This document shows positions 560 through 62,684 of a DNA stretch of 64,000 bases, piece by piece. The notes beneath the pieces were generated by a model, which had not been told where the DNA came from, searched no databases, and worked only from the letters and a program-made list of their open reading frames with translations. The translations under genes were made by a program, and so were the position numbers. The number at the start of each line of letters is the position of its first letter. Positions within the stretch are counted from its first letter, which is position 1. This DNA is from Apoderus coryli (Eukaryota > Arthropoda > Insecta > Coleoptera > Attelabidae). The stretch lies in contig OU452200.1 in NCBI GenBank assembly GCA_911728435.2, positions 29,651,715-29,715,714 of the forward strand. The letters run 5' to 3'.

Positions 560-828
560 TTTGCTATCGTTCGATCACACTAGATACGCCCGAATTCCCT
601 GGCGGGAGGCTTTATTTACGAATTGCTTGTTACATAAAGTAACAAGACTTTTAATTATGTTGGAAATTGGAAATAAAGCATCCCGCCAGGGAATTCCGGC
701 TTTTCTAGTGTTGGCAATAGGATTTAATAGACTTGTTACTTCTTGTCCGTCCATCGTTTGTAAACTGTGTCTCCCTGGGCATATTGCCTGCTCACACTAG
801 ATGTTGCCAAAAACATCTTGTTGTCTTT
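560..828. repeat. Diverged inverted copy of the 337-bp hammerhead (retrozyme-like) repeat
   Basis: About 560-666 matches the minus strand, and about 668-828 the plus strand, of the repeat unit found in tandem at 53.5-54.4 kb. Shared landmarks are GAATTGCTTGTTACATAAAG, the AATAAAGC/CCAGGGAATTC block, TCTAGTGTTGGCAATAGGAT, TTGTTACTTCTTGTCCG and GCCAAAAACATCT. The ribozyme core is not included in this copy. It is visibly older than the copies at 12 and 53 kb and no target duplication is apparent. Its right edge abuts a palindromic MITE. Confidence 0.75.
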
Positions 829-4240: not shown

Positions 4241-4281
4241 TTCAGACATGTTTCGACCATATTTGAGTCATCATCAGTATA
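4241..4281 (-). ncRNA. Hammerhead-like ribozyme motif
   Basis: The minus strand reads CUGAUGA, an extra U, then a stem opening with GAC and closing with GUC, then GAAAC-AU-GUC. GUC is an acceptable cleavage triplet. Stem I is weak (one or two pairs), so this copy is probably inactive. It belongs to the same class as 11405-11445 and 36571-36609. Confidence 0.45.
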
Positions 4282-11133: not shown

Positions 11134-11175
11134 TATACTGAAGATGGCCTTTGGTAAGGCCGAAACATGTTTATA
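11134..11175 (+). ncRNA. Hammerhead-like ribozyme motif, well paired
   Basis: The plus strand reads UAUA (stem I), CUGAAGA, an extra U, GGCCUU-UGGU-AAGGCC (perfect 6-bp stem II), GAAAC, AU, GUU (allowed cleavage triplet), UAUA (stem I partner). Stem III is the minimal AC/GU pair with a 2-nt loop. Both stems differ in sequence from the other copies but pair fully. The extra U between box 1 and stem II is non-canonical, so activity is unproven. Confidence 0.6.
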
Positions 11176-12178: not shown

Positions 12179-12419
12179 TATTGTATAATTAAGAATTGCT
12201 TGTTACATAAAGCAACAAGACTTTAAGTTATGTTGGAAATTTATTTCACACTACTATGCTTCCACCAGACGGCCGTTTCGTCGATCCACGACTCATCAGT
12301 GGTGATCGGCAGGTAGTGTGACCTAAACTTCCAACAATTTACAAAGAGCTTATACTAGCACGAGAATTGATTGATTGCTAGGTGTCGCCACAAACATCTC
12401 TCTCTCTATTGTATAATTA
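12179..12419. mobile_element. Retrozyme-like insertion with 13-bp target duplication
   Basis: The insert spans 12192-12406 and is flanked by TATTGTATAATTA at 12179-12191 and 12407-12419. The left part (12192 to about 12375) is the minus orientation of the 337-bp unit and includes a complete hammerhead. The right part (about 12376-12406, GCTAGGTGTCGCCACAAACATCTCTCTCT) is the plus orientation of the unit's 3' end. Outer ends match those of the larger insertion at 53394-54446. The 5'-inverted structure with a target duplication is what target-primed reverse transcription with twin priming produces. Confidence 0.85.
12263..12304 (-). ncRNA. Type-I hammerhead ribozyme, canonical core
   Basis: The minus strand gives CACCA (stem I), CUGAUGA, GUCG-UGGAU-CGAC (perfect stem II), GAAAC, GGCC, GUC, then UGGUG (stem I partner). 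Stem III is AC/GU, or ACG/CGU with a 2-nt loop. Cleavage is predicted after the GUC, between 12268 and 12267. All invariant core positions of the known hammerhead family are present. Very short stem III is typical of retrozymes and Penelope-associated hammerheads, which often act as dimers. Confidence 0.85.
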
Positions 12420-23845: not shown

Positions 23846-25280
23846 CTATTCTGATAGATTTGAGTCTATTGTTGAGTCACTAACATTATCAGTAAACCCC
23901 GGATCAAGGATATTGGAATATATTATGTTAAGATCGTCGATGTCTTTTCTTTTATTGAGGCTGTTCTTATTTGTGTTTGTTTCAACCATTTCCAAAAACA
24001 ATCGCTTTCTTTGGTTTGCTTCTCTACATATCACTTTCGACTCCCCGTAATTTGGTTGATGGCCAGTATCTAGATAATGTTCGGCTAAAGAGCACGATCT
24101 TTTATGTAAGCGACAGTCGCTTTTGTGCGATGTTATTCGATCTTTAAGGACTCTGGAAGTCTGACCAATATACATAAGATTGCAAGACGAACAAGGAATG
24201 CTATAAACCACTTCGGATGTTTTTTGTGGAGAATCTTTGTCTTTTGTTTTTGAAAAAAGGTTACCAACGTTTTTTGAGAACTTTTGTGCAAATTTGAAAG
24301 GTTCATTTTTAAATACTTTAATTATTTTCTGTGTAACACCTTTGATGGCTGGCAATCCAAAATATATTTTATGGTTATCCTCCGGGGAGTTTACCGGGGA
24401 TGTTGAGGGTTGGGTGTTTTGTCTATTTGTGGGTAGAGGATTGTGATATGTTGTGTTAAATATTAATTTTTTTAAAAGATTTTTTGGATATGAATTTTGA
24501 CGAAGGATCTCTACAAGTGCTTGTTTGTTTTTGTGTTGGAGAGAAATGTGACATATCTTCTCTATTCTATTCTTTAGACCAAGTACTAAATTAATTTTCA
24601 TTTTTTCTGTGTGGTTGGAGTTATAGTTTAAGTATCGACCAGAATTAGTTGGTTTGATATACCAATCTAATATGATTTTATTATCATCTGTTCTTATGAG
24701 TTTCGTATCTAGAAAAGGTACAGATCTGTCACTTTCCTCCTCCATAGTAAATTTAATGTTGTGATTGTAGTTATTAAAGATATTTAACACCTCATCTTTT
24801 TTGTTGTGTGGAATGGAGCAGATTAGGTCGTCGACATATTTTTTTAAAAAAGGGAAGTTTAAAAGGCAATTTTGGTATACATTCTTCCAGAAGATCGTCC
24901 ATGACAATTTGAGCAGCGATGGGTGATATTGTTGCTCCCATTGGGGTTCCTAATATTTGTTTATAATATTTGTTGTCATATGTGAAATATGTGTTGTTGA
25001 ATATAAATTGTATTAAATCTATGAATCGATCTTTTGGAATGTTCGTTATTTTTGAAATGTCATTCCACCTTTTGTTAACACTGTGAACTACTAGTTCAAC
25101 GGGAATATTAGTGTAAAGGGATACCACATCTAAGCTTATTAAAACATAATCCATAGGTAGTTGTTTGTTGTTTATGAATTTAGAAAACTCAAAAGAATCT
25201 GAAATATAAAAGTCATTATTTTTAGAATACGCCTTTGTAATGATGTTAGTAACAGACATCAGACTAACAAATAAGTTCAC
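23846..25280 (-). pseudogene. Penelope-like element: reverse transcriptase and GIY-YIG endonuclease, 5'-truncated, one frameshift
   Basis: Two minus-strand ORFs (24792-25280 and 23846-24907) together give a Penelope-type ORF. Motif A is LISLDVVSLYTNIP, motif B LGTPMGATISPIAAQI, motif C KKYVDDLICSIP (YVDD catalytic pair). The C-terminus carries the GIY-YIG nuclease VVYSIPCSSCNLMYIGQTSR with RITSHKSD. This pairing is diagnostic of Penelope-like elements, which copy their RNA onto nicked DNA. The frame breaks at the TTTTTTTAAAAAA run near 24845, just before YVDD. The protein is cut at its 5' end within the early RT region, so the copy is dead. A plus-strand hammerhead-like motif lies 60 bp beyond the truncation. 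Confidence 0.9.
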
Positions 25281-25340: not shown

Positions 25341-25382
25341 TCAACTGATGATGACCCTTACTAGGGCCGAAACATGTATTGA
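25341..25382 (+). ncRNA. Hammerhead-like ribozyme motif next to the Penelope-like element
   Basis: UCAA (stem I), CUGAUGA, U, GACCCU-UACU-AGGGCC (stem II with one A-C mismatch), GAAAC, AU, GUA (allowed triplet), UUGA (stem I partner). It lies on the strand opposite to the reverse transcriptase, so if it is a Penelope terminal repeat it is inverted. Hammerheads are known in Penelope terminal repeats; the extra U after box 1 is shared with the other dispersed motifs here. Confidence 0.6.
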
Positions 25383-30250: not shown

Positions 30251-31363
30251 TTACATTAACAAATGTTGAAAATGTGACCCATTTGATTCCATACAATAAT
30301 ACAGATTTTGTTCAAATCTATTTCTAACATTTTGTAGCATATCAGGTGTTATGTTTCTGCACTCTTCTGTAATGCGTTGGCGAAGATCTTCTATGGACTC
30401 GGGCTTCGTGGCAAAACATTTATTTTTTAAGTGCCCCCAAAGAAAAAAGTCTAAAGGCGATAAATCCGGTGACCTGGCAGGCCATTCAATTGGGCCCCTC
30501 CTTCCAATCCACCGTCCAGGGAACCGGTCATCTAAGAACTGTCTTACAGGAGCCACATAGTGCGGAGGTGCTCCATCTTGCTGGAAATAAAGCCGATCAG
30601 CAGTATGATTTTGGTCATCTTCTATTATTTGTGTTATTAAAGGATCAATTGTGTCTTCAAGCATGTTTAGGTACACTTCACCAGTTAAATTTCCAGGAAT
30701 AAAAAGTGGTCCTATAATATGATTTCCTAATATGCCACACCAGACGTTTATTTTTTGAGGATACTGGGTATGAACCTCACGGAATAAATGTGGGTTACTG
30801 TCATCCCAGTAACGGCAATTGTGCCTATTTACAGCTCCATTCAAATAAAATGTGCATTCGTCGGAAAAACAAATGTTAAATAATAATTGCGGATCTTCAA
30901 TTAAACGCTGGCTCATTGCTTCACAAAATTGCAGCCTTCTATCAGGATCATCCTCATTTAGTTCCTGTACTAATTTGATTTTGTACGGATGAAATTTGTA
31001 CGCTTTTAAAATTCGTATTATGGACGAACGGGAGACACCTGAGGCTTCAGCTAGTTGACGGGTACTTTGACTATGATCCATTTCAACATGCCCTAAAACA
31101 GCGACTTCCACAGCTTCATTTCTGATCGGTTTCTGCGGCTGGTGTTTTACATTACAGACAGATCCGGTATCTACAAACTTTTTAACTAACTTGCCAACGT
31201 ACACATCATTCACATTTTTATCGGGATGTCTCTCATTAAATAAGCGAGCCGTAAGTCTAGCACTACTATTATTTTGAAAATAAAGTTTAACAATTTCAAC
31301 TCGTTCTAGAATGGAATAAATCATTTTGTACGGTAAAAGTAAAATAACTTGAGAAGCAACCAA
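30251..31363 (-). CDS. Mariner-like DD41D transposase, intact
   Basis: A 370-residue open frame from 31363. The methionine at codon 14 (31324, MIYSILERVEIVKLYF) is the likelier start because family homology begins there. Two helix-turn-helix modules precede the catalytic core; the second includes STRQLAEASGVSRSSIIRIL (residues 100-119). Catalytic aspartates are D168 (CFSDEC), D263 (FQQDGAPPHY) and D305 (SPDLSPLDFF), with 41 residues between the last two, hence DD41D. The C-terminus SHFQHLLM is typical of the group. It cuts and pastes DNA at TA sites by binding the TIRs and could also mobilise non-autonomous relatives here. Confidence 0.92.
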   Translation of the reverse strand: MVASQVILLLPYKMIYSILERVEIVKLYFQNNSSARLTARLFNERHPDKNVNDVYVGKLVKKFVDTGSVCNVKHQPQKPIRNEAVEVAVLGHVEMDHSQSTRQLAEASGVSRSSIIRILKAYKFHPYKIKLVQELNEDDPDRRLQFCEAMSQRLIEDPQLLFNICFSDECTFYLNGAVNRHNCRYWDDSNPHLFREVHTQYPQKINVWCGILGNHIIGPLFIPGNLTGEVYLNMLEDTIDPLITQIIEDDQNHTADRLYFQQDGAPPHYVAPVRQFLDDRFPGRWIGRRGPIEWPARSPDLSPLDFFLWGHLKNKCFATKPESIEDLRQRITEECRNITPDMLQNVRNRFEQNLYYCMESNGSHFQHLLM

Positions 31364-31526
31364 ACTGAATCAATGAAAAGACTAAAATAAACGGTGTAAA
31401 TTCTTTTCCTACACGTATCTGCAGTTTTTATTTCAACAAAAAACGCAAACGATTAGTGAGGAATTTAGTTCTGATAAATAAGATAGTGTTTTTGAAATCC
31501 CGTTTTTCTTCAAAGTAAATAATTTA

Positions 31527-32171: not shown

Positions 32172-33411
32172 TTAGGTTAACCAAAGCACTCAATGAATAA
32201 CGCTTTTCGTATCTCTTTTCGAAACAGTTTCACATTTAAGTATTTCGTTTCGGGCCTTAATCCATTGTAAAATTTAACCGCATTATATGTAAAACACTTA
32301 GTAAATTTTGCTGTGTGAAATCGTGGCATGGTCAAGGAATTGTATGGACGAATATAATTCGTGCCTAAAAATAAATTTCTCTCTAAGATAAACAGGATTT
32401 GAGAAGATGAAAAGTCGATTCAAATTTGAGCCACTGAAGTTGTTTTATGAATTGCGTAATATGATCATATTTTCTTAAACCAAAAACGAATCTACAACAG
32501 GTATTCCGGACATACTGTACTCGATTTTTCTTTGCCAGGTCAATGCAGTAATAGTACATAATATTGCAATAATTCAAAGCTGACATAACCAACAATTCGT
32601 TTAGTTTTTTACGCATTTTAAAATTCAGTAGGTCTCTACTTGAGTATAGCATTTTTAGGCGTAAGTAGGTTGACTTCAGAATATGATTTATGTGGTCATC
32701 GAAATTAAGCTTCTCATCGAGAGAACTACCTAGAACTTTCATAGACTCACAAAATATCAACACATTGCCATTCAATTTCAAAGTTATGTTATTTTTAAGA
32801 AACGCTCGCTTGTTCTGCTGACAAAAAATCAAATTGTGTGTCGTAGAAAAGACCGAAATGGCATCCAGATCACTAGTAATATGAGTCACAGCAGTGTCAT
32901 AATTACATGGCTCGAAATTACAGAGCAAATGAGTATCATCAGCGAATGCAGTGATTTGGCAATGCTTTATAGTGTCAAACATAGTGGCAGTATATATAAA
33001 GAACAGCCAGCAAAGGACCTAGGATGAATCCCTGTGGGACTCCAGATATCACAGATTTGGTACGAGATGACATGTTATTCATGCAGACACTTTGAGAGCG
33101 GTTTTCCAAATAACTCCGAAAGAAGGCTACTGAACGTTTGTCGAACGAAGCCATAATAATTTAATTTTGCCCACAAAAGCTCGTGATCAATAGTGTCAAA
33201 TGCCTTCGAAAACTCGAGAGATATTAACAGTGCCGCTCTTCCTCGATCAATAGTACTATTATCTGTGAGATTCGAAAGCGCTGTTTTTGTGCTGTGATAC
33301 TTCCTAAAACCTAAAACCCGATTTTTTTTTTACTAGTCGATTTTCTTGGGAATGAGGTTCAGATGAAACTAGTTTTTTGAAATAATATTTATTTCATGTC
33401 ATATCTTTTTT

Positions 33412-33450
33412 ATACAACGTTTCGACAACATTACGTTGTCTTCTTCAGGC
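33412..33450 (-). ncRNA. Hammerhead-like motif, left arm
   Basis: The minus strand has CUGAAGA, A, GACAAC-GUAAU-GUUGUC (perfect 6-bp stem II), GAAAC, GUU. Stem I has about three pairs. Stem III is the self-complementary ACGU, which could pair only between two molecules. Confidence 0.5.
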
Positions 33451-33633
33451 AACAGAGAACTTCTTTTTTTTTTATAATTTCTTACAACATCTTTTCATTT
33501 TGACCAAGGCATTTAGGTATACATATATAACAACATTAATAAGTACCAGAAAATTCAGATCATTTCTGTTTAATATTTGGCATTGTTTAAAATAGTTATT
33601 ATTGTTGTAAGAAAAAAAAGAAGTTCTCTGTTG

Positions 33634-33672
33634 CCTGAAGAAGACAACGTAATGTTGTCGAAACGTTGTATA
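33634..33672 (+). ncRNA. Hammerhead-like motif, right arm
   Basis: Same sequence as 33412-33450 on the opposite strand: CUGAAGA, A, GACAAC...GUUGUC, GAAACGUU. Confidence 0.5.
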
Positions 33673-34576
33673 AAAAAAGATATGACATGAAATAAATATT
33701 ATTTCAAAAAACTAGTTTCATCTGAACCTCATTCCCAAGAAAATCGACTAGTAAAAAAATTAAATAATAAGGTTCAAGAAAACTTTCAAGAATAATAAAA
33801 CCCGATTGAAACTTTGGAATGATATTATTAGAATAAAAGTATTCTGATATTTGACTGGCAACAACTTTCCCTAAAATTTTAGACAAAAATGGCGTAGATC
33901 ACTGACGCTCCGAGGCTCATTGGTTTTGGGTAAAGGATAAATCATCGCTTGCTTCCATGCCTGAGGGAAGTAATTTGACTCTAAACAACAATTTGTAATA
34001 TGAACAACATTAAATTGTATTATGACCACAGATCAAATGATGGTTTCCCAGTTATGAATTTACCCTTTTTACATCCCTCACCCAGCGTTTTCGCCCCAAT
34101 TTTTTTATAATATTGTATTGCCACCGAACCTACATTACCGTGCCAAATTTTGATCAAAATCGGTTCACGGGAAGTTTCAGAAAAATGCATTAAAAGATTT
34201 GACAGGCATCTAGACCAGACCAGGCAGTGCAGGTACATAAAATCGTTTAAAAATGCTATTTTTATTCTAGCTGATAAATTACCTAAATTTTACATTGTTT
34301 TTACTTTAAAAACTCTCATGAAACTTATTTTACATTATAGACCTCTGGATTTAAAAACAAACTAAATAGTTTTTGTATTTTGACCGCATGCTCCCATTTG
34401 ACCTCACCACTGTGCGTTCGTGGCTTACTTACTCTCACTGTTCGAAGTGGCGCATTCATTTTTAATAGTTCAGTAATGTACCCTGTAAATGTTAACACTT
34501 TCGAGTCTATATCATCATCATAATAGATAATATCCCAGGGAAATTCTCGCTCTTCCGTTGTCAAACTTCTATACAA

Positions 34577-36524: not shown

Positions 36525-36735
36525 ATCTATATATATATATATATATATACGTTAAAACCTTGTTTAAAATGCCAGACATGTTTCGGACTACACGTCCATC
36601 ATCAGTGGCTTAAGGAACCTTATACAGTATTGTCAGATGTGAGGGTCGTACTTCATACAAATGTTAATAGAGAGCTTTACATTGATTTAAACGTTTATAC
36701 ATATCACTTTGTTGGAAATAAATTGAGTTGTTAAA
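36525..36735 (-). repeat. Hammerhead-bearing dispersed repeat, family A, copy 2
   Basis: Minus-strand partner of 22612-22790, with the same ordered blocks and a (TA)n tail (36526-36549). It contains the best preserved motif of the family. Confidence 0.7.
36571..36609 (-). ncRNA. Hammerhead-like ribozyme motif, intact pairing
   Basis: The minus strand reads GCCA, CUGAUGA, U, GGAC-GUGUA-GUCC, GAAAC, AU, GUC, UGGC. Stems I and II (4 bp each) pair fully; stem III is AC/GU with loop AU. The only departure from the textbook hammerhead is the extra U after box 1. Confidence 0.65.
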
Positions 36736-42592: not shown

Positions 42593-42735
42593 GTGAGTTT
42601 TTAAATTGTTTATATTTATACATAATTTCAAGAAGTTTATCCAATAGGTATTTTTGTTTTATTTTTTACTGAATTAAAATAATTTTTAACAATTTAAATT
42701 TTCTAGTTATCTATCGTTTTTTTCATATATAGGTA
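42593..42735. other. Start of LSD1 intron
   Basis: Follows the GTGAGT donor. AT-rich; a palindromic MITE starts 143 bp in. The next expected LSD1 exon (the DAVLCTLPLGVL segment) was not found before the end of the window. Confidence 0.6.
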
Positions 42736-43219
42736 CAATGTGTCCACGGATAGAGTTCGGAAGAGGAAAAACTTTTTTTATTTGTAGATTTAGAAGAAAA
42801 AGTCATTCTTTATAAAAACGAAACTACAATTACAAATACCAAATTTACGATTACTATACAGGGTATATCAAAAATAATATTTTTAATGATTTAGATTTTT
42901 CTGTTTTTTTTTTTAATTTTATGAAAATATTTCCAAAACCGTGATTTATTACACCAATTGTGCCAAAAAAGCTAATAAACCTTTTTCTCAAAGTGGTTAA
43001 TTTCATAGCTACTATTGAAATAATAAAATTAAAAAAAAAAGAAAGAAATCAAAATCATTAAAAATAATATTTTTGATATACCCTGTATAGTAATCGTAAA
43101 TTTGGTACTCGAAATTGTAGTTTCGACACAAGCAGACGTTTTCATAAAGAATGACTTTTTCTCCTAAATCTACAAATAAAAATGTTTTTCCTCTTCCAAA
43201 CTCCATCCCTGGACACATT
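42736..43219. mobile_element. Palindromic MITE (CAATGTGTCCACGG family), copy 3
   Basis: Begins CAATGTGTCCACGGATAGAG after TA and ends CCATCCCTGGACACATT. Arms of about 230 bp have the same internal landmarks as 832-1760, including TATACAGGGTATATC in one arm and its complement in the other. It lies in the probable LSD1 intron, 144 bp after the splice donor. Confidence 0.85.
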
Positions 43220-43488
43220 AGATAGAGTTTGGAAGAGGAAAAACTTTTTCATTTGTAGATTTAGAAGAAAAGGTCATTCTTTACAAAAACGTCTGCTTGT
43301 GTCGAAACTACAATTTCAAATACCAAATTTACGATTACTATACAGGGTATATCAAAAATAATATTTTTAATGATTTTGATTTTCTTGTTTTCGACACAAG
43401 CAGACGATTTTACAAAGAATGACTTTTTCTTCTAAATCTACAAATAAAAAAGTTTTTCCTCTTCCGAACTCTATCCGTGGACATATTG
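43220..43488. mobile_element. Palindromic MITE, copy 4, internally deleted
   Basis: Starts at GATAGAGTTTGGAAGAGG (outer 14 bp of the left end missing at the junction with copy 3) and ends CTATCCGTGGACATATTG before TA (43489-43490). The centre of the palindrome is lost, leaving arms of about 135 bp. Like 832-1760 this is a head-to-tail doublet. Confidence 0.8.
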
Positions 43489-43539
43489 TATATTTATATT
43501 GTATCTAGGCGGTGTTTCACGGTCGATGGTAGGTTAGAC

Positions 43540-52757: not shown

Positions 52758-53393
52758 ACATGAGCGCTTTTATACATTAAGATACCTAAAAGATACATCG
52801 TATAATCTGATCCACAACAATTTCAAATTTTGAAACATTACAATTACAGAAACATAATGTTAACGGTGTAAATATAAATCAGTATAATGATGCATTTGAT
52901 AATTATTTGTAGTGGTCGGCATTAGAATCATTAACTATATCAATTTTATAAATAATGTATTGTAAAAGAATTGTGTTTGGCGACATTTAGTGTTTACTTA
53001 GCAATATCTCGTGTGAATAGAGAATAACTATAACGGCCAATTTAGCACTAGCTGTCGTCAAACTTATTTCTTTTACAATGTATATCCAGCTAAATCCAGA
53101 GTCTCGCTGACAACTGACCACTAATGGTCTTGGATCGACGAAATGGTGAAAGTACAGTGTTTGACAGACAAACTGTCAAGTTTTAAAGTCTTGTTTCTTA
53201 AACAAGTCCGAACTTGGCAAGTAGAATATTGGCAAGAGTTCCAAATAGATAAAAGTTTAACATTCTTAAAATAATGCTTTATGGTATTATTATAATTGTT
53301 GCTTTTCATGGTTTTATTATGCATGTTTATTTTGTTTGCCAGATCTTTTTTAATTTAATATTATATTTTGATTCAAATGCGTTCAAAGTCGAA
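52758..53393. other. AT-rich non-coding spacer
   Basis: No recognisable gene. Confidence 0.4.
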
Positions 53394-53477
53394 CAATTAT
53401 AAATTAAGAATTGCTTGTTACATAAAGCAACAAGACTTTAAGTTATGTTGGAAATTTATTTCACACTACCATGCTTC

Positions 53478-53519
53478 CACCAGACGGCCGTTTCGTCGAT
53501 CCACGACTCATCAGTGGTG
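53478..53519 (-). ncRNA. Type-I hammerhead ribozyme, canonical (inverted unit)
   Basis: Same 42-nt sequence as 12263-12304: CACCA, CUGAUGA, GUCG...CGAC, GAAAC, GGCC, GUC, UGGUG. All stems pair. Confidence 0.85.
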
Positions 53520-53526
53520 ATCGGCA

Positions 53527-53863
53527 TGGTGGAAGCATGGTAGTGTGAAATAAATTTCCAACATAACTTAAAGTCTTGTTGCTTTATGTAACAAGCAATT
53601 CTTAAATAAAGCCTCCCTGCTAGGGGATTCGGGCGCATCTAGTGTTGGCAATAGGATATAATGGAGTTGTTACTTCTTGTCCGGCCATCGTTAGTGAACT
53701 GTGTTTCACCCGGCATATTGCCTGTTCACGCTAGGTGTCGCCAAAAACATCTCTCTCTCAATCAATTCTCGTGCTAGTATAAGCTCTTTGTAAATGTTGG
53801 AAATTTAGGTCACACTGCCTGCCGATCACCACTGATGAGTCGTGGATCAACGAAACGGCCGTC
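53527..53863 (+). repeat. 337-bp unit 1 of the array
   Basis: Runs from the predicted post-cleavage base (UGGUGG...) to the next cleavage site after GUC at 53861-53863. It includes TTGTTGCTTTATGTAACAAG (a small hairpin), AATAAA, TTGTTACTTCTTGTCCG and CTCTCTCTCAATC. Identical by eye to unit 2. Confidence 0.9.
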
Positions 53864-53868
53864 TGGTG
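53827..53868 (+). ncRNA. Type-I hammerhead ribozyme, one stem II mismatch
   Basis: CACCA, CUGAUGA, GUCG-UGGAU-CAAC, GAAAC, GGCC, GUC, UGGUG. A G-to-A change makes one C-A mismatch in stem II relative to 53478-53519. The core is intact, so some activity is possible. Confidence 0.8.
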
Positions 53869-54200
53869 GAAGCATGGTAGTGTGAAATAAATTTCCAACA
53901 TAACTTAAAGTCTTGTTGCTTTATGTAACAAGCAATTCTTAAATAAAGCCTCCCTGCTAGGGGATTCGGGCGCATCTAGTGTTGGCAATAGGATATAATG
54001 GAGTTGTTACTTCTTGTCCGGCCATCGTTAGTGAACTGTGTTTCACCCGGCATATTGCCTGTTCACGCTAGGTGTCGCCAAAAACATCTCTCTCTCAATC
54101 AATTCTCGTGCTAGTATAAGCTCTTTGTAAATGTTGGAAATTTAGGTCACACTGCCTGCCGATCACCACTGATGAGTCGTGGATCAACGAAACGGCCGTC
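53864..54200 (+). repeat. 337-bp unit 2 of the array
   Basis: Second direct unit between two predicted cleavage sites; a third partial unit (54201-54432) follows and stops at CTCTCTCTC before the target duplicate. Confidence 0.9.
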
Positions 54201-54205
54201 TGGTG
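54164..54205 (+). ncRNA. Type-I hammerhead ribozyme, one stem II mismatch (second copy)
   Basis: Exact repeat of 53827-53868, 337 bp downstream. Confidence 0.8.
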
Positions 54206-54446
54206 GAAGCATGGTAGTGTGAAATAAATTTCCAACATAACTTAAAGTCTTGTTGCTTTATGTAACAAGCAATTCTTAAATAAAGCCTCCCTGCTAGGGG
54301 ATTCGGGCGCATCTAGTGTTGGCAATAGGATATAATGGAGTTGTTACTTCTTGTCCGGCCATCGTTAGTGAACTGTGTTTCACCCGGCATATTGCCTGTT
54401 CCCGCTAGGTGTCGCCAAAAACATCTCTCTCTCAATTATAAATTAA

Positions 54447-60609: not shown

Positions 60610-62684
60610 CAGGGTGTCCCCTCTCAATTGGAAAAAACTTCTGGGGCATATTGAGGAACCATAGACAAGCAGTTTGAGATAAGAGACTGATGTCCGGAAG
60701 TGCATGGTTTTCAAAATACAGGGTGTCAAAGTTTTTTTCAAAAAACCTTTTTTTATCAATATCTCGAAAGAGACGTTAACCGATTTTCTTGAAATTCGCT
60801 GGTGATGTAAGCTTAATAAGACGCTCAGTTAGCACTAATTAAATGTTAATTGTGACTTCCAGTGGCGCCCCGGGGGACAGTGTCACGAATAAAATTGACA
60901 AAAAAATGTACGCTACTGACTTTTTTTGAAAATTTTATATTTTTTTCCGAAAGCTCAGTTAAAAATACAACTTTTTTGTCACTTGATATTTTTTCGTATC
61001 TCTCTCCGTTTATGAGAAAAAATTTGTATTAAAAACTTTATTAAAAGGTCCATTATTATTGAAAGAAAAACAAGGAGGCTTTTTTACAAATAATTTATTA
61101 TTAATAGTGGAGCAAATGCTCAAAGTGTTCACCATGCATTTCGATGCATTTTCTGCACCTGTCGAGCCAGGATTCGCGCACCCGAGCAAACACGCCTGGA
61201 TCGTTCGCGATAAATTCCGCTGCCACCACAACTCTAGCAACTAGGTCCTCTATTGTCGGCACAGGAGTTGCATAGATCAACCGTTCCATTTCGCCCCAAA
61301 GAAAAAAATCCAGGGGGGCCAAGTCTGGCGACCTTGCTGGCCAAGGGACGGGACCACCTCTACCAATCCACCTGTTGTTGTAGGTTTGGTCGAGGTAACA
61401 TCTCACGGTGCGCGCAAAATGCGCTGGACAACCATCGTGTTGGAACCAGGCCTCTCTACGCAACTGGAGGGGTACATCTTCCGGGAGCTCGGGCAGAATA
61501 TCTCGCAAAAAAACTAGATCGCTATTCCCGTTGAGGTGATCAGGTAGAACGTATGGCCCAATCAAATGGTCGCCCAGAAAACCTGCCCAAACATTAACAC
61601 CAAACTTCTGCTGATATCCTCTGATGTGCCTAGTCGCTCCACTCGTGGTTATTACGAGGATTGAATGTCCCCTCGCGCGAAAATCCTTTTTCATCGCTCG
61701 TGAAGATTATACTTAAAAAATCAGCGTTTTCATCCGCTTGACCGAGCAACCACTCGCAGAACTCGAGCCGCCGAGGAGCGTCGCCAGGCAGTAGATGCTG
61801 CACCTTTTGCAGTTTAAATGGATGCAGATCGTGGATTTTCAATACTCGATAGACAGTATTTTTGCTGCAATCAAGTCGCGACGCAATCTGACGAGTGCTA
61901 ATGTTGGGCTCATTCTGAATGCGTGCCATGACTTCATCCTCAACGGCATCTCTGATCGGACACTGCCTTGCAAATTCTCGAATAGGCTGCAAAGATAACA
62001 AAGCCTCTTAGATTGGCTGTAAATAGAAACGCGCAAGAAAAAAACACAGAAAGTTGCCATTTCTGCAATACTTACCACGAATGAGCCGGTCTCCCGTAGA
62101 TTTTGATTAATTTTGACAAAAATCTTATGGTTTGGCAATTCACGATTTTGGGAAACGCTGCCCGTACAACCGTTGTGCTAACAAAGAATTACCGCGCGCT
62201 TCCCCATACAAGAGATGCATATCTGCAAGCTCGGCTAATTCAAAACGATTCATTTTTGCAATTAGTGTAACGTTTGAAGATAATTAAGTACTTATAAACT
62301 GACACTTTTACTAAAGTTTGACATGTTTATGTGTTACCATGACAACATTGTTTTGTTTTAGATTTTCACTAATAATAATAAATTATTTGTAAAAAAGCCT
62401 CCTTGTTTATCTTTCTAATAATAATGAACCTTTTAATAAAGTTTTTAATAAAAAAATTTTCTCGAGAACGGAGAGAGATACGAAAAAATATCAAGTGACA
62501 AAAAAGTTGTATTTTTAACTGAGCTTTCGGAAAAAAATATAAAATTTTCAAAAAAGTCAGTAGTGTACATTTTTTTGTCATTTTTATTCGTGTCACTGTC
62601 CCCCGGGGCGCCACTGGAAGTCATAATTAACATTTAATTAGTGCTAACTGAGCGTCTTATTAAGCTTACATCACCAGCGAATTT
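60610..62684 (-). mobile_element. DD41D mariner-like transposon with very long TIRs, right end truncated
   Basis: The left end CAGGGTGTCCCC (after TA at 60608-60609) begins a TIR of about 500 bp reaching about 61108. Its mirror at about 62370-62684 stops at CATCACCAGCGAAT, lacking the outer 190 bp. Shared landmarks are CCCCGGGG near the GGCGCCACTGG block, TACAACTTTTTTGTCACTTG and CAAGGAGGCTTTTTTACAAA. The interior holds a frameshifted transposase. Dead through both lesions. Confidence 0.85.
61101..62001 (-). pseudogene. DD41D mariner-like transposase, one frameshift
   Basis: Two overlapping minus frames. 61630-62001 carries the helix-turn-helix STRQIASRLDCSKNTVYRVL and DLHPFKLQKVQHLLPGD and reaches D1 (IIFTSDE). 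61101-61694 continues QQKFGVNVWAGFLGDHLIGP, D2 (WFQHDGCPAHF), then WPARSPDLAPLDFFLWG with D3 41 residues after D2, ending HFEHLLHY, stop. A frameshift just after D1 (about 61630-61695) is the only clear coding lesion. Distant relative of 30251-31363, clearly a separate lineage. Confidence 0.9.

Follow-up and report, generated by a model that had tools for sequence, protein, structure and literature searches.

The window, that is, the whole 64,000-nucleotide stretch of Apoderus coryli DNA that was analysed, contains an insertion (copy A) of an element that is almost certainly a non-LTR retrozyme of the metazoan kind: its non-coding RNA of 337 nt carries a type I hammerhead and is mobilised in trans. 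The identity follows from the unit size, the type I hammerhead, the tandem array, the target duplication, the self-pairing of the RNA and the further copies, and by these features the match to known retrozymes, which an earlier sequence-only reading had proposed, was well supported. We consider the element a further member of this already known class, and the anatomy of its insertions points to double-sided priming, most plausibly with a Penelope-like helper. Dispersed copies were found at four loci within the 64-kb window, one of them weak. The parts of copy A were as follows.

53395-53407, no strand: left target-site duplication of copy A, AATTATAAATTAA, with a 4-nt overlap with the left arm
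53404-53526, minus strand: inverted arm of copy A, from unit base 79 back via 1/337 to 294, hammerhead included
53527-54436, plus strand: direct array of copy A, 2.7 units of 337 bp, from unit base 1 to 233-236
54434-54446, no strand: right target-site duplication of copy A, AATTATAAATTAA

Tandem Repeats Finder returned a period of 337, 2.7 copies and a 99% match at 53527-54436, which bore out the proposed 337-bp unit and its copy number. Units 1 and 2 of the array were identical at 337 of 337 bases and the partial unit 3 was changed at one of 236 (position 54402); the insertion is therefore young or was recently homogenised. No ORF of at least 120 aa (stop to stop) overlapped copy A, and at this threshold the description of the unit as non-coding held. 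The GC content of the unit was 0.436, and the predicted self-pairing of its RNA reached -113.4 kcal/mol as compared to -83.6 kcal/mol in 100 shuffles (z -5.9).

A stepwise comparison placed the first base of the direct arm, 53527, at unit base 1, right after the GTC of the hammerhead. As the two arms do not overlap at the junction 53526/53527, the direct arm starts exactly at this base, which confirmed the reported array start. The 123 bases upstream of the array were an inverted arm of the same 337-bp unit and not flanking DNA, which gives copy A a head-to-head structure, and this inverted arm crossed the cleavage junction without interruption. The flanking repeat CAATTATAAATTAA was located at 53394-53407 and 54433-54446. 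Its first C belongs to the unit as well (base 233), which leaves 13 bp for the duplication itself; the earlier statement that a target duplication of 13-14 bp brackets the whole insertion thus stood, the 14th base belonging to the unit. At the other edge, the last 3 bases of the array (to unit base 236) were common to array and target. Among 400 site pairs drawn at random from the window and searched with the same slack, none gave a direct repeat of at least 11 nt.

The hammerhead cores of copy A, and that of a second copy (copy B), were identified at the following positions.

53832-53863, plus strand: first type I hammerhead core of the array; helix II has a C.A mismatch
54169-54200, plus strand: second type I hammerhead core of the array; helix II has a C.A mismatch
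53483-53514, minus strand: hammerhead core in the inverted arm of copy A, helix II C-G intact (unit base 323 is G)
12268-12299, minus strand: hammerhead core of copy B, helix II intact (C-G)

Comparison with the Rfam hammerhead models, which the sequence-only reading had recommended, recovered RF00163 at 53826-53869 (+), 54163-54206 (+) and 53477-53520 (-), but with 30.1-32.3 bits (E 0.0004-0.0022, for the whole window) all three copy A matches fell below the gathering score of 34. Since they lie just under that score, a default Rfam scan was empty, the gathering threshold being reached by nothing in the window. The ribozyme had been called a canonical type I hammerhead: the type was upheld by RF00163 and by the complete core, whereas the word canonical needs qualifying, both array copies having a C.A mismatch in helix II. 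The strict hammerhead motif occurred four times in the window versus none in 40 dinucleotide shuffles. Helix III consists of two pairs with a palindromic GGCC loop, which would make pairing between two units possible. Unit base 323 was A in both array copies and G in the inverted arm, in copy B and in a third copy, A'. In a model without tertiary contacts, and for three fragments that differ in length, the hammerhead fold lay 14.7 kcal/mol above the best fold in the array form vs 8.7 kcal/mol in copy B and the inverted arm, and the hammerhead was the predicted best fold in none of the three. MicroRNA matches on 53404-53605 were discarded; all were below their gathering scores and arise from the inverted repeat.

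BLAST of the unit and a profile search from the single unit located three further loci in the window, B, C and A'. A second profile was built from all copies, including A' and C, and its E-values for those two are not independent evidence. The features of the three loci are listed below.

12179-12191, no strand: left target-site duplication of copy B, TATTGTATAATTA, with a 3-nt overlap with the left arm
12189-12374, minus strand: inverted arm of copy B, from unit base 79 back via the hammerhead to 232
12377-12406, plus strand: direct arm of copy B, unit 204-233
12407-12419, no strand: right target-site duplication of copy B, TATTGTATAATTA
577-668, minus strand: inverted arm of copy C (older), unit 119 to 27
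671-818, plus strand: direct arm of copy C, unit 78 to 226
52959-53018, minus strand: inverted arm of copy A' (decayed), about unit 236 to 178, outer end at about 233-236
53044-53201, plus strand: direct arm of copy A', from about unit 201 via a decayed hammerhead to about 60 (E 0.00015)

The tandem array is confined to copy A, and the head-to-head arrangement, with the RNA 3' direction pointing outward, was seen in all four copies found, that of A' on a weak match. The inverted arm of A' was weak by itself (nhmmer E 1.2) and was helped by a local inverted repeat (52959-53002/53036-53079, 44 nt, 77%). Two extra bases separated the inverted and direct arms of copy B. The direct arm of copy C could extend to unit 233 at about 825, where the last 7 bases match poorly; an extension of its inverted arm to 522, given by one profile hit, was poorly aligned and was not counted. 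By eye, no target duplication was seen around copies C and A'. In the hammerhead of copy A' (53120-53160) exactly unit 330-337, the 8 bases before the cut, were missing and the sequence resumed at base 1. This gap may be an ordinary deletion, as copy A' has other gaps, or it may be a trace of a cut end.

Outer ends at unit 79 and 233, together with 13-bp duplications, were common to the young copies A and B; with freely placed ends, the probability of coinciding twice to within 3 bases would be about (7/337)^2, or 4 in 10,000. At 233 the fit was exact for A and B, to a few bases for A' and to the 7 poorly matching bases for C; at 79 it was exact for A and B, about 10-20 nt short for A' and lacking for C, which ended at unit 119. 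The target duplications were rich in A+T (13/13 and 12/13 bases vs 0.67 for the window).

The inner ends were scattered. Only the direct arm of copy A, one arm of eight, ended at the cleavage base, an exact coincidence with a chance of 1/337 for one arm and 0.023 for at least one of eight, and the other inner ends lay at unit 294, 232, 204, 27, 78, about 201 and about 178. The long arm of copy B stopped at unit 232, beside the other outer end, 233. Across copies, the cleavage site was no general starting point. The idea that the array derives from a self-cleaved RNA copied to its 5' end thus fits the direct arm of copy A and not the seven other inner ends. Copies starting at random unit positions had been named, together with a lack of cleaved or circular RNA, as evidence against that idea, and such scatter was found for the inner ends, while outer ends 79 and 233 recurred in A and B.

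We regard it as rather probable that the retrozyme was copied from both target ends, giving a Penelope-like insertion anatomy, with a Penelope-like enzyme as the likeliest candidate helper. A staggered cut would open the AT-rich target, and both exposed 3' ends would prime reverse transcription at separate sites within the retrozyme RNA (about base 79 and base 233); the two cDNAs would then be joined at their far ends with little or no overlap. The template would be circular or multimeric, because in both A and B the arms primed at 79 run on past the cleavage junction, and copy A has a direct arm of 2.7 units. In that copy, hammerhead cleavage would have produced the 5' end at which the direct arm stopped. 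The priming sites (79 and 233), the form of the template and run-off at the cleaved end in copy A are all inferred. The two cDNAs of copy B may have met on one circle, since its long arm stops beside the other start site. More broadly, and with slightly less than an even chance, the retrozyme insertions would be the trace of a Penelope-like enzyme that copied a small circular RNA with both ends of the target as primers and with fixed priming sites inside the RNA.

Unit base 323 bears on the template. The arms of copy A differ at this base, which means separate templates unless a later substitution accounts for it. The derived A in both full array units indicates one kind of template, as in rolling-circle copying of one circle. 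One circle copied more than twice would explain this simply, and a homogeneous multimer or a later exchange between units would do so too. Some observations weigh against the double-sided reading. There are four copies only, two of them old, and the array hammerheads are weakened. The end of copy C at unit 119 and the short, weakly matched arm of A' do not fit base 79, and around neither copy was a duplication seen. In both A and B there is a 3-4 nt overlap with the target at base 79, and base pairing alone may set this end.

The same overlap can be read as 3-4 nt of homology to the target, and would suit a retrozyme mobilised by a LINE (L1/Jockey/RTE type) through ordinary twin priming, its head-to-head arms being 5' inversions. 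Twin priming of this type gives the same topology, duplications of such length and 5' inversions, unit 225-233, up to outer end 233, is a CT repeat that may resemble a LINE-type 3' tail, and LINE-like ORFs were seen by eye in the window, with one endonuclease domain match under its cut-off. About a quarter of L1 copies are inverted, and such a minority is not what was found here, where four of four copies are; nor do A and B show any additional poly(A) or repeat where their arms meet the target, and both outer ends are internal to the unit and common to two insertions. We judge a LINE rather unlikely. An origin of the inverted arms in assembly or amplification is extremely improbable. Inverted chimeras are a known artefact, but A and B are each bracketed beyond their arms by a different duplication, the head-to-head shape recurs in the old copy C, and the arms of copy A differ at unit 323.

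Perfect 13-bp duplications at A and B, where random site pairs gave none of such length, as well as inverted arms and dispersed copies, make it very unlikely that the array is an ordinary satellite-type tandem repeat with a hammerhead, grown by unequal exchange, in which the start at the cleavage base is coincidental. Recent exchange would give the identical units 1 and 2, and the probability of 0.023 for a cleavage-base end among eight arms would leave room for coincidence; exchange could also have enlarged an array that was first inserted shorter. A last alternative differs from double-sided copying of a circle in the form of the template only. Here the RNA would be a linear multimeric transcript with its 5'-most hammerhead cut, which we hold possible, at a little under an even chance. 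A 5' end exactly at base 1 requires a linear end, the weak array hammerheads with their C.A mismatch would leave multimers, and PMC7229834 reports multimers in axolotl; against this, circular RNA is described as abundant in the animals of that study, and a circle could cut itself while being copied.

A Penelope-like element lies in the same window.

23846-25280, minus strand: Penelope-like element fragment with two overlapping ORFs, apparently 5'-truncated; RVT_1 and GIY-YIG slightly under the Pfam cut-offs
25345-25378, plus strand: minimal Penelope-type hammerhead, pointing away from the Penelope-like ORFs of the other strand and head-to-head with them

The ORFs had 63 protein relatives, 13 of them with an organism name, namely 12 from beetles and one from an ant. 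The beetle relatives (Diabrotica 6, Molorchus 2, Coccinella 2, Exocentrus 1, Harmonia 1) showed 36-54% identity, and the best relative outside the named set showed 62%. Judged by these relatives, the host is probably a beetle-like insect. No intact Penelope-like copy was shown within the window, and no sequence common to the unit and the window's Penelope-like copies was demonstrated. The minimal hammerhead motif with a paired helix II occurred eight times in the window, four of them outside the retrozyme (40 shuffles: mean 0.025, maximum 1). Minimal Penelope-type hammerheads were noted at 4245-4277 (-), 11138-11171 (+), 25345-25378 (+) and 36575-36605 (-), with the core CTGAnGA, GAAACATGTn. 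By eye, a loosely similar block follows them about 40-80 nt downstream; a resemblance of this block to the unit around base 79, also judged by eye, was too weak and was rejected. Elsewhere, the inverted arms at about 33325-33477 and 33605-33759 each contain a hammerhead-like core and lie head-to-head like the retrozyme copies; their outer ends are A-rich and lie about 90 nt from the cut.

Penelope-like elements are described in PMC3846280 with an inverted pseudo-LTR and direct copies and with duplications of 8-10 bp, the head-to-head form being the most frequent and one family having mostly direct pseudo-LTRs; that paper favours self-priming on an antisense template for the inverted pseudo-LTRs and reports no cross-mobilisation between Penelope types, which counts against the proposed helper. 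The Penelope-like enzyme studied in PMC11167929 cuts and extends both strands, starts inside the RNA and prefers AT-rich targets. Its start sites at +111-118 lie 85-92 nt past the hammerhead cut at +26, and the corresponding distance of retrozyme base 79 is 79 nt past the cut. In the same study, and against the proposed reading, hammerhead cleavage was unnecessary for insertion in vitro and no RNA-seq reads ended at the cut.

The insertion features of Penelope-like elements were found here in the form of head-to-head arms in four of four copies (one weak) and a duplication in two of four. As described in PMC3846280 and PMC11167929, EN-containing Penelope-like elements share with the retrozyme the head-to-head combination of inverted with direct copies, the partial tandems and a hammerhead near the start sites, and like it they have short duplications and AT-rich targets. 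Unlike them, the unit has no RT or GIY-YIG gene (no ORF of at least 120 aa) and its hammerhead has a helix III loop. The gap between start sites is 154 nt in the retrozyme (79/233) as against a 30-40-nt 'tail' in the described Penelope-like elements, and the duplications are 13 bp in copies A and B as against 8-10 bp. The likeliest enzyme to move the retrozyme would be a Penelope-like one, a proposal to which we give about even chances.

Among known systems, the metazoan non-LTR retrozymes of coral, mussel and axolotl described by Cervera and de la Pena in 2020 (PMC7229834) resemble the element in the type I hammerhead with a short helix III, tandem units of 170-400 nt, low GC, the lack of a protein, duplications of more than 4 bp and co-existence with Penelope-like elements; this likeness is one of described features. 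The main text of PMC7229834 nowhere uses the word 'inverted', and head-to-head arms are not so described there. The texts and listings surveyed contained no account of retrozyme insertions that lie head-to-head and have ends in common, and no priority is claimed. The cave cricket repeat pDo500 (PMC2837043) is likewise described as an insect repeat with a hammerhead, but it is listed as a satellite DNA family. Plant LTR retrozymes (PMC4918200, and as contrasted in PMC7229834 and PMC7761336) are also hammerhead-processed non-autonomous retroelements; they differ from the copy A unit in their type III hammerhead, LTRs with PBS and PPT, and 4-bp duplications.

The exact 32-base hammerhead core had no matches in the prokaryote and viral collections, which are not the right collections for an insect. 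A looser pattern returned at least 120 viral and 38 prokaryote stretches. These 158 loci were screened for repeats of at least 40 nt at the hammerhead; among the matches listed the longest was 191 nt, and the only inverted repeats among those listed were two of about 60 nt (L122, L156). The stretches look like scattered phage and bacterial hammerheads and were set aside.

Two papers of 2020 (PMC7229834, PMC7761336) present Penelope-like elements as strong or likely candidate helpers of animal retrozymes, on the basis there described of shared type I hammerheads, tandem copies and co-occurrence. Recurring outer ends and head-to-head arms make this helper hypothesis testable in any assembled retrozyme-bearing genome, and unit 79 and 233 are concrete candidate start sites for an in vitro assay. 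If true, the anatomy would provide an insertion-level fingerprint that names the metazoan retrozyme helper. A stop at the cleavage base, if repeated, would be genomic evidence of hammerhead-cut ends on the RNA during copying.

Other repeats were observed in the window. Two large related palindromic repeats, at 828-1764 and 42734-43492, were about 78-95% alike, and the first adjoins copy C. Long inverted repeats at 29803-30179/31521-31897 (98%) flank a transposase-like ORF at 30251-31369, and others at 60792-61109/62367-62684 (95%) flank a transposase-like ORF at 61101-62007. Both loci are consistent with fairly young DNA transposons.
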